This document shows, piece after piece, positions 54,396-56,537 of a DNA stretch of 64,000 bases (positions within the stretch are counted from its first letter, which is position 1; each line of letters begins with the position of its first letter). Source of the stretch: Halobacteriovorax sp. HLS (GTDB lineage: Bacteria; Bdellovibrionota; Bacteriovoracia; Bacteriovoracales; Bacteriovoracaceae). Both the position numbers and the translations under genes were made by a program. Under the pieces are notes generated by a model that saw only the letters and a program-made list of their open reading frames with translations, made no database searches and had not been told where the DNA came from. The stretch covers positions 1 through 64,000 of the forward strand of contig NZ_QOCL01000001.1 of NCBI RefSeq assembly GCF_004006665.1, given 5' to 3'.

Positions 54396-54627
54396 GAATC
54401 TAGCAATTTTAATTATGCTTGCCATAGTTACCAGCTGTGGTAGTGCGAAGTTTGTACCAACAACTGATAAATGTTCTTTAGAAAAGCATTGGAAAGAAGC
54501 AATCTATCAAGTAAGAATTAATGATGAAAAGATAAACACTCACTGGTATTTAAAAAAAGATGCTAAAGAAATTATGAAATCATTAGCATCTAAGAATAAA
54601 TGTATGTCACAAGATATTACTGAATAA
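54385..54627 (+). CDS. Small cysteine-paired lipoprotein (HWYxKKDA family, copy 2)
   Basis: 80 residues from ATG 54385, chosen because GAGGAG lies seven bases before it, whereas the ATG at 54379 is only one base from it. Lipobox VTSC (C18). C30 to C73 holds CSLEKH, IND and HWYLKKDA, matching the lipoprotein at 51127. It overlaps the FecR gene by 11 bases, so it is translated with it. Its 3' end overlaps a convergent lipoprotein gene by 11 bases. Confidence 0.72.
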   Translation: MNYKNLAILIMLAIVTSCGSAKFVPTTDKCSLEKHWKEAIYQVRINDEKINTHWYLKKDAKEIMKSLASKNKCMSQDITE

Positions 54628-55384
54628 AGATAGAATTGATGGAGAGAACATTTTTCTCTTCACCACCAAAAGCTTGTCCATCACTTGTACTAAAGTTATA
54701 AGAAGTCTTCAAATGCCACGCCGTTGGAGGAACCTCAGAAGCAAAAGTTACGCTAAAGTCACCACTTATAGAGTTTGCAAACTTATCTACTTTAATATTT
54801 TTTAAGTTCAAACCAGACACGGCCTCAATATCAGCTTCTATATAGTAAGTTAGATTCCATGTGATTAGTCCATTCACTAAGGCCTTAGTCATTCTAACAG
54901 GCCTAATCGTATCAAAGGGCATTGGTGAGTTTTCATCCCCTAATTGGTCAAGGTATAATAAAATAGTAGGAGTGATATAAAGCCCTAGAGCATCTCCAGT
55001 AGATGAGTGGTTCGCTCTTAGGTTACATACTCCTGGTTCTTCAGTAGAATTTTCACCAAGTGTAAAATTAATAAGCTCTCTACTTATATCAAATGTCTCG
55101 GCCTCTCTATTCCATATGGTTGTATAAATAATTGAATCATAAATATAGTGACAAATAAGATCAGAGTTATGAGACTCTTCAATTTCACCTTCAGGATAGA
55201 TGACAACATCTTTTTGGTTTCTTGTTGTTGGTTGCCAGTTTTCCCAAGAAGCAGATAGCTCGCTACGTAAAGTATTAATATCTTCCAAGTTTTCAACAAA
55301 GGCAATTGGAGGGTTTTCAGCAGCTGAGTCCCCTTTGCAAGAAACTACAAGTATAGATAAGCATAGAATGAGTAAGAACTTCAT
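54617..55384 (-). CDS. Lipoprotein of unknown function
   Basis: 255 residues. Signal peptide with lipobox VVSC (C16). The rest looks beta-rich with no membrane helix: WNREAETFDISRELI, LITWNLTYYIEADIE and SNSISGDFSV-like strands. No family recognised. The ribosome site AAAGAGGA before the ATG is part of a perfect 10-bp inverted repeat that would mask it in the mRNA. Confidence 0.78.
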   Translation of the reverse strand: MKFLLILCLSILVVSCKGDSAAENPPIAFVENLEDINTLRSELSASWENWQPTTRNQKDVVIYPEGEIEESHNSDLICHYIYDSIIYTTIWNREAETFDISRELINFTLGENSTEEPGVCNLRANHSSTGDALGLYITPTILLYLDQLGDENSPMPFDTIRPVRMTKALVNGLITWNLTYYIEADIEAVSGLNLKNIKVDKFANSISGDFSVTFASEVPPTAWHLKTSYNFSTSDGQAFGGEEKNVLSINSIFIQ

Positions 55385-55385
55385 A

Positions 55386-55432
55386 AATCCTCTTTAGTTA
55401 AATAAGAAAGTTTAACGCTATCAAAGAGGATT
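55386..55432 (-). promoter_or_regulatory. 5'UTR hairpin masking the ribosome site of the lipoprotein at 54617
   Basis: In mRNA sense: AATCCTCTTT (55432-55423), a 27-base spacer, then AAAGAGGATT (55395-55386) ending one base before the AUG. Inside the spacer GTTAAA/TTTAAC forms a second 6-bp stem with an 8-base loop. The ribosome site AGAGGA is wholly within the 10-bp outer stem. This is the layout of an RNA thermometer, riboswitch-type or protein-controlled translational switch. There is no U run, so it is not a terminator. Confidence 0.6.
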
Positions 55433-55475
55433 CTAATTTTAAAGTAATTATTTTTATAGACCTGTATACTGAGAG

Positions 55476-56537
55476 TTATATTTTAATCAACGAACTCTGC
55501 GACGCATCAACAGTAAAGCTAATACTCTTTTTAAGAGAGCTAACCTCCGAGTTTGCAACAATCATTCTAAATTTCTCAATACCACCGACCTGTAGCCAAG
55601 CTTCATGAAAGGCACCAAGATGAGTCAAACGCTTAATTTTACCTCTTAAAGGCGATTGTTGATCAATATGAACATTTTCTGGTCTAATCAACATATACGC
55701 GAAGTCTCCTACTCTAAGGCCGCTCTCCACGTTTAGAATAGGAAATATACCTAGCTTATTTTCATGAATAAAATGCTCATCAGTTTTATCAATAATCTTT
55801 CCTGCCATGAGATTAACACTACCAGAAAACTTGGCCACCCAAGCGTCTACTGGTTTTAGATAAATATCTCGAGCTGTAGAGAACTGCTTAACTCGACCTT
55901 CGTTGAGAACAAGTATTTTATCAGAATGTGAAAAGGCATCCTCTAGGTCATGGGTAACAATAAGAGCTGAAATACTTCTTTCCCTTAATATTTCAACTAA
56001 CTCTTCTTTTAATTCATTTCTGAGGACTTTATCAAGATTAGCAAAAGGTTCATCTAAGATGAGAAGCCTTGGTTGTGTAACTAAGGCCTTAGCCATTTCA
56101 ACTCTCCCCTTCTGTCCGGTAGAGAGTTCATGAGGAAATTTTTCGTCTTTATATTGAAGGCCGAACACCTCAATCATATCTCTTATTCTATGGTGGCGCT
56201 TTTCCTCATTCTCCTCATCTAGATTCTTTCCAATATTTTGGAAAACACTAAGTGTTGAATCGAGAGATAGTTCCTGTGGAACATAGGAGATTTTCTTTAA
56301 CAAATCTGTATTCTTCTCTTGCGTACTTACTAGTCGCTTGTCTAGGAAAGTAACTTCTCCTTTTTCAAACTCCAGTAGTCCTGCGATAATTTTTACGATA
56401 GTACTTTTTCCCGTTCCACTAGGGCCAATGATACTAATAATCTCATTCTTCTTCACTTCAAAACTAATGTGATCCACAACAGCAATAGACTTCGTGTCAT
56501 AACTTTTGAAAATATTGTCGACTTTAAGAAATGTCAT
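55476..56537 (-). CDS. ABC transporter ATP-binding protein, PotA/CysA type
   Basis: 353 residues. Walker A GPSGTGKST (about 38-46), Q-loop SYVPQEL, signature LSTGQKGRVEMAK, Walker B LLILDEPFANLD, H-loop VTHDLEDAF, then a TOBE-type domain (about 240-353). This matches importer ATPases for spermidine, iron, sulfate or molybdate. No permease or binding-protein gene is adjacent, so its partner is elsewhere. The ATG overlaps the ybaK stop (ATGA). The substrate cannot be inferred. Confidence 0.92.
   Translation of the reverse strand: MTFLKVDNIFKSYDTKSIAVVDHISFEVKKNEIISIIGPSGTGKSTIVKIIAGLLEFEKGEVTFLDKRLVSTQEKNTDLLKKISYVPQELSLDSTLSVFQNIGKNLDEENEEKRHHRIRDMIEVFGLQYKDEKFPHELSTGQKGRVEMAKALVTQPRLLILDEPFANLDKVLRNELKEELVEILRERSISALIVTHDLEDAFSHSDKILVLNEGRVKQFSTARDIYLKPVDAWVAKFSGSVNLMAGKIIDKTDEHFIHENKLGIFPILNVESGLRVGDFAYMLIRPENVHIDQQSPLRGKIKRLTHLGAFHEAWLQVGGIEKFRMIVANSEVSSLKKSISFTVDASQSSLIKI

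Follow-up and report, generated by a model that had tools for sequence, protein, structure and literature searches.

Ribosome site of a Halobacteriovorax lipoprotein gene, most likely hidden only in messages from the neighbouring gene

Long early transcripts of phage T4 gene e are reported to fold, whereby lysozyme is cut about 100-fold; transcripts from the late promoters do not contain the 5' portion of this fold (PMC3014915). In the T4 gene e sequence itself, we found that the anti-SD arm overlaps a TATAAATA late promoter, which is the same layout as that predicted for the gene described here. The cost of opening the SD of gene e falls from 14.7 kcal/mol with an 80-nt leader to 5.0-3.8 kcal/mol for assumed starts at -24 to -18. 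Measured in the way used for our genes, its longest perfect stem in the SD region has 6 bp. In the transposase leaders of IS10 and IS50, the ribosome site is likewise hidden in transcripts that enter from outside.

We analysed a stretch of 64,000 nucleotides (the window) in which a perfect inverted repeat covers the ribosome site of a putative lipoprotein gene. Our preferred reading of the hairpin, in which we place middling confidence, is that it masks read-through messages as in T4 gene e.

The hairpin and its gene

The repeat is read on the minus strand. Its 5' (anti-SD) arm, AATCCTCTTT (55432-55423), and its 3' arm, AAAGAGGATT (55395-55386), are complementary at 10 of 10 positions across a spacer of 27 nt. 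The 3' arm holds the SD AGAGGA (55393-55388), and a single base (55385) separates the end of this arm at 55386 from the ATG (55384-55382) of a 255-aa lipoprotein gene. An initial annotation of this DNA had described exact complements 27 bases apart, the second of them being the ribosome site and ending one base before the AUG, and both descriptions are borne out. The further 6-bp stem that it placed inside the loop also appears in the predicted fold (GTTAAA/TTTAAC, 55416-55411 paired with 55402-55397, with an 8-nt loop), which consists of the 10-bp stem, one G-U pair and this inner stem.

Folded as 81 nt, the hairpin has a predicted free energy of -15.2 kcal/mol (z -3.36), and none of 200 shuffles was equally stable. 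With longer flanks (136 nt), z is merely -0.96; therefore, the local stem is unusual and the whole leader is not. By pairing probability, the SD of this gene is the least accessible among 292 starts. By opening cost it ranks 32nd of 777 and hence is not extreme, as about 4% of 1012 starts in the genome have an SD-opening cost of at least 11.8 kcal/mol. The unusual feature of this leader is the long perfect repeat, rather than the cost of opening its SD.

The exact repeat occurs a single time in the 3.84-Mb genome, and the leader DNA has no further match across five same-genus genomes, its own included. The initial annotation had suggested a search for the same leader before other genes; no exact copies are present in these genomes. 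Other SD repeats of at least 10 bp do occur in this genome. Rfam 15 covariance models gave no match in the window at the gathering score. Around the hairpin, with E up to 10, there were only two Rfam matches, both to 14-bit microRNA models. An intrinsic terminator at the repeat was considered and rejected: the stem is followed by ATTTATG and the site is absent from the terminator scan. Since no T-tract follows it, the stem is not a terminator.

The reading frame behind the repeat (54617-55384, minus strand) encodes a putative lipoprotein of 255 aa that begins MKFLLILCLSILVVSC and contains VVSC, which we take to be a lipobox. The protein matches no Pfam family above its cut-off, and a sequence search for relatives of solved structure found none. 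Upstream and co-directional lies a gene for an ABC transporter ATPase with a TOBE domain (55476-56537, minus strand), which is the supposed source of read-through. The two are separated by 91 bp of intergenic DNA (55385-55475), and the scan found no terminator-like site on the minus strand within this gap.

The lipoprotein gene is present in 3 of 129 family genomes, its own included. The orthologue in G002 (same genus) has 47% identity and the same neighbours, and that in G020 (another genus of the family) has 36% identity. The perfect repeat is missing in both of these orthologues, the only two found among the 129 family genomes; their longest perfect SD stems are 6 and 5 bp. In the G002 leader, folding pairs GGA within a weak A-U/G-U stem, with an unpaired probability of 0.10-0.22 and a cost of 7.0 kcal/mol for opening; in the G020 leader, the SD is part of a weak stem of 14 pairs, for which the corresponding values are 0.005-0.06 and 6.5 kcal/mol. 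In neither is SD pairing better than in shuffled sequence (z -0.11 and -0.14). Judged by these comparisons, the perfect repeat at this gene is not conserved. The two orthologues offer no compensatory changes, to which the initial annotation had looked for confirmation. Covariation is uninformative because there are only two orthologues, both without the repeat.

The gene has a presence/absence pattern within the genus. It is absent from the corresponding place in G001, G003 and G004 (same genus), where the ABC and convergent small lipoprotein genes adjoin directly (L033-L035). In G013, where the lipoprotein gene was not found, a similar repeat, CCTCTTTGAAAG ... AACTAAAGAGGAG, stands before an ATG (G013:C4:120762-120813).

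Repeats over the SD in the genome and family

We surveyed 776 gene starts in 1.264 Mb for repeats whose 3' arm falls within 20 bases upstream of the start, calling lipoproteins, starts and SDs by crude rules and swapping leaders between genes as a chance control. Repeats of at least 10 bp were found at the SD of 8/776 starts versus 0.7-1.0 expected, and repeats of at least 9 bp at 14 versus 3.1-3.7 expected. At a control offset (-60 to -41) there was no such excess at 10 bp or more (2/776 versus 1.4 expected), and the count at 9 bp or more was 9/776 versus 5.1 expected. The 3' arms of repeats of at least 10 bp concentrate at -30 to -6. When the upstream parts of 292 SD-bearing starts in the first 464 kb were shuffled, only 0.12 starts were left with an SD-covering stem of at least 10 bp, in keeping with the judgement in the initial annotation that such a match at the ribosome site has a low probability of arising by chance.

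In a fresh 400-kb part of this genome, repeats of at least 10 bp were found at 2/236 starts versus 0.28 expected, with no excess at 8 bp or more (4 versus 4.9 expected). The related genome G003 had such a repeat of at least 10 bp at 1/233 starts versus 0.28 expected, and none was seen among the starts surveyed in G001 and G041. Because SD repeats exceed chance, the hairpin before the lipoprotein gene belongs to a small class that shows most clearly in this genome and whose arms and loops (3-49 nt) vary from gene to gene. Lipoprotein starts are enriched among the non-terminator repeats of at least 9 bp (5/14 versus 40/637). They account for 5/8 of the repeats of at least 10 bp in the first set (P 4e-5) and for none of the three found in G003 and the fresh 400-kb part. 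A bias of the class towards exported proteins is not significant (6/14 versus 184/643, P 0.19).

Two of the eight repeats of at least 10 bp resemble terminators. These have 14-bp terminator-like stems (G000:C1:459135 and 147881 (-)) whose 3' arm and T-run run straight into the next called start codon, so that the SD-like word lies inside the terminator. Elsewhere in the genome, a perfect 12-bp SD-hiding repeat precedes a gene for a 593-aa lipoprotein (G000:C1:149712 (-), loci L015/L076) and is not present as such in four same-genus orthologues. A perfect 13-bp SD repeat stands before another lipoprotein gene (G000:C3:63291 (-)), with TAGTATAAG at the edge of its loop.

We also searched the 129 family genomes for the pattern TTCTCCT..AGGAGAA..ATG, counting by hand and using a shuffled arm and the reversed pattern as controls. 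The pattern gave 113 rows, or 85 after removal of 28 two-strand rows, versus 57 for the shuffled arm and 43 for the reversed pattern. In 79 of the 82 rows outside this genome (two duplicates and one overlooked row are left out), stems extend inward by 0.77 pairs versus 0.26 by chance. Since the family rows outnumber those of the shuffled arm and their stems are longer than chance, the excess of SD repeats may extend beyond this genome. It should also be noted that close divergent genes are a trap for searches of this kind: they yield SD/anti-SD pairs trivially because the SD of the neighbour reads as an anti-SD on the opposite strand, and 28/113 rows match both strands.

SD opening and predicted promoter placement

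We computed the cost of opening the SD and ATG for transcripts with different starts. For starts at 55475-55434 it is 11.55-11.81 kcal/mol at 37 C, and for starts at 55426-55418 it is 4.45-4.59 kcal/mol at the same temperature. By the genome-wide measure, the cost drops from 11.98 kcal/mol with an 80-nt leader to 5.66 kcal/mol for starts at 55424 or 55422; the genome median is 5.65 kcal/mol (1012 starts). In the full leader, the probability that the SD is unpaired is 0.0001, 0.0002 and 0.005 at 37, 42 and 70 C, respectively. These models support the view that the ribosome site would be buried if the whole leader were present. To that extent, the translational switch proposed in the initial annotation stands in silico (P unpaired about 1e-4 at 37 C), but its suggestion of a thermometer is unsupported and the leader has no Rfam family.

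A -10-like hexamer, TAGAAT (55435-55430, minus strand), shares three bases with the beginning of the 5' arm; the other seven bases of the arm come next, and then G at 55422. It was picked out with a -10 score matrix. The start predicted from it, at about 55424-55421, coincides with the end of the arm, and its -35 match is poor (3/6). The initial annotation had held that a transcript start downstream of 55423 would speak against a switch, and the start predicted from this hexamer is about there. Alternative -10-like hexamers are TAAAAT (55441-55436) and TATAAA (55458-55453), and a start from TATAAA would keep the hairpin whole.

In the mechanism we propose, RNA running in from the ABC gene would have both arms, fold and bury the SD, and the lipoprotein would then go untranslated from this read-through RNA. 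The gene's own promoter would have TAGAAT as its -10, with seven bases of the 5' arm still to come. RNA from this promoter would begin at or just after the arm end, leaving an SD of ordinary accessibility. Because only read-through RNA would carry the 5' arm, the origin of the message would decide whether it is translated. The ribosome site is thus most likely hidden only in messages from the neighbouring gene. The analysis shows the repeat, its surplus over chance, the modelled opening and closing and the existence of a class in this genome, and from these we infer the promoter, its start, the read-through and the consequence for translation.

Across the class, a -10-like hexamer is often found between the arms or where the 5' arm begins. 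To place promoters relative to the arms, we used 657 starts preceded by non-coding sequence of at least 40 bp, taken from the first set and the fresh 400 kb of this genome alone and excluding the terminator-like 147881 and 459135. For 14/14 repeats of at least 9 bp, the start predicted from the best -10 falls between the arms (loop-matched expectation 4.7, P 5e-8), in a test run on the same genome from which the idea was formed. Chance repeats in chimeric leaders have the start between the arms in 283/546 cases, and shorter stems are near baseline (4/12 at 8 bp, 16/33 at 7 bp and 65/137 at 6 bp). With a plain match-count score, 9.0/14 starts fall between the arms versus 4.2 expected, and with an extended -10 score 8.0/14 versus 4.4 expected. 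The result of a genome-trained EM model of the -10 went against the idea (combined P 0.98), but this model had drifted to coding bias, scored TATAAT below zero and was dropped. In five genes (55384, 76140, 39861, 190138 and 222809), the distance from the -10 to the end of the 5' arm is 6-8 nt.

Earlier tests of the -10, with other genomes included, placed 14/16 inside, and 16/18 versus 5.4 expected. In the independent sets, this placement is seen in 2/2 repeats of the fresh 400 kb, 2/2 in G003, 0/1 in G001 and 0/1 in G041, which makes 2/4 outside this genome. Among 29 family loci it is seen in 12, and among those with stems of at least 9 bp and an ORF of at least 60 aa in 5/10, both being raw counts without an expected value. 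Other genomes thus lend the placement little backing. The upstream gene is co-directional for 12/14 class members versus 328/637 others (P 0.009). For 13/14 class members there is no terminator-like site upstream, which says little because 148/163 control genes also have none.

Taking the class as a whole, promoters nested in SD-hiding repeats might be a form of chromosomal insulation in this bacterium, and perhaps in the family, whereby about 2% of the starts with such non-coding DNA upstream (14/657), lipoproteins above all, would be translated only from own-promoter messages. We put this forward tentatively and regard it as somewhat doubtful.

Alternative explanations and known systems

One alternative is a regulated switch, in which the whole hairpin would be part of the gene's own mRNA and would be opened by a small RNA, a protein or a ligand. 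With a start at 55434 or upstream, the SD would be unpaired with a probability of about 1e-4, and therefore an opener would be needed; the enrichment of lipoprotein starts in the class also favours regulation of this kind. However, neither an Rfam match nor covariation was found, the two orthologues found being without the repeat, and the arms and loops of the class differ between genes, so we consider a switch unlikely. An RNA thermometer, for which the position of the SD within the stem would be suitable, was rejected and is highly improbable, as the stem is predicted to stay closed to beyond 70 C and shows no melting in the living range.

About as unlikely as the switch is a repeat without function, born of chance or mutation and tolerated since its 5' arm lies outside the main mRNA. 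Such an origin would alone account for a -10 between the arms, and it fits the lack of conservation between species at both genes examined (this one and 149712), but tolerance yields no excess, and repeats of at least 10 bp number 8 versus about 1 at the SD with no excess at the control offset. Finally, the repeat could be an element of another sort, such as an operator dyad, a 3'-end stabiliser of the ABC mRNA or a constitutive damper of translation. It starts 43 nt past the ABC stop codon and could shield the 3' end of that mRNA, but arm sequences and loop lengths differ within the class, unlike those of one shared operator, and the repeat has no T-tract and hence is no terminator; we rate this sort of element as quite unlikely.

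Genes separated by 50-100 bp with no terminator between them can be expected to receive read-through. If the hairpin is indeed a read-through mask, a promoter nested in an SD-hiding repeat isolates a gene without a terminator, and translation reads where the message originated. In the open-licence literature searched, we found no account of masks of this kind forming a set on a chromosome, and no Bdellovibrio start-site map was among the literature matches listed. Such a set would help in reading 5' ends and expression from sequence.

The focal leader shares an SD within a stem with SD-sequestering thermometers and riboswitches; unlike them, it is not predicted to melt at any temperature of the living range, matches no Rfam family and has no conserved sensor that we could see. 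IS10 and IS50 differ in being mobile elements with terminal repeats, while the genes described here are ordinary chromosomal ones. The predicted arrangement resembles that of T4 gene e (lysozyme) and I-TevI, in which the SD is reported to be buried in long transcripts and the promoter to be embedded in the DNA encoding the stem's 5' strand (PMC3014915). Gene e belongs to a phage, is served by late promoters and has a reported 100-fold effect, whereas the present repeat is on a bacterial chromosome and combines a predicted sigma-70-like -10 with a perfect 10-bp stem. A nested-promoter mask is documented for T4 gene e.
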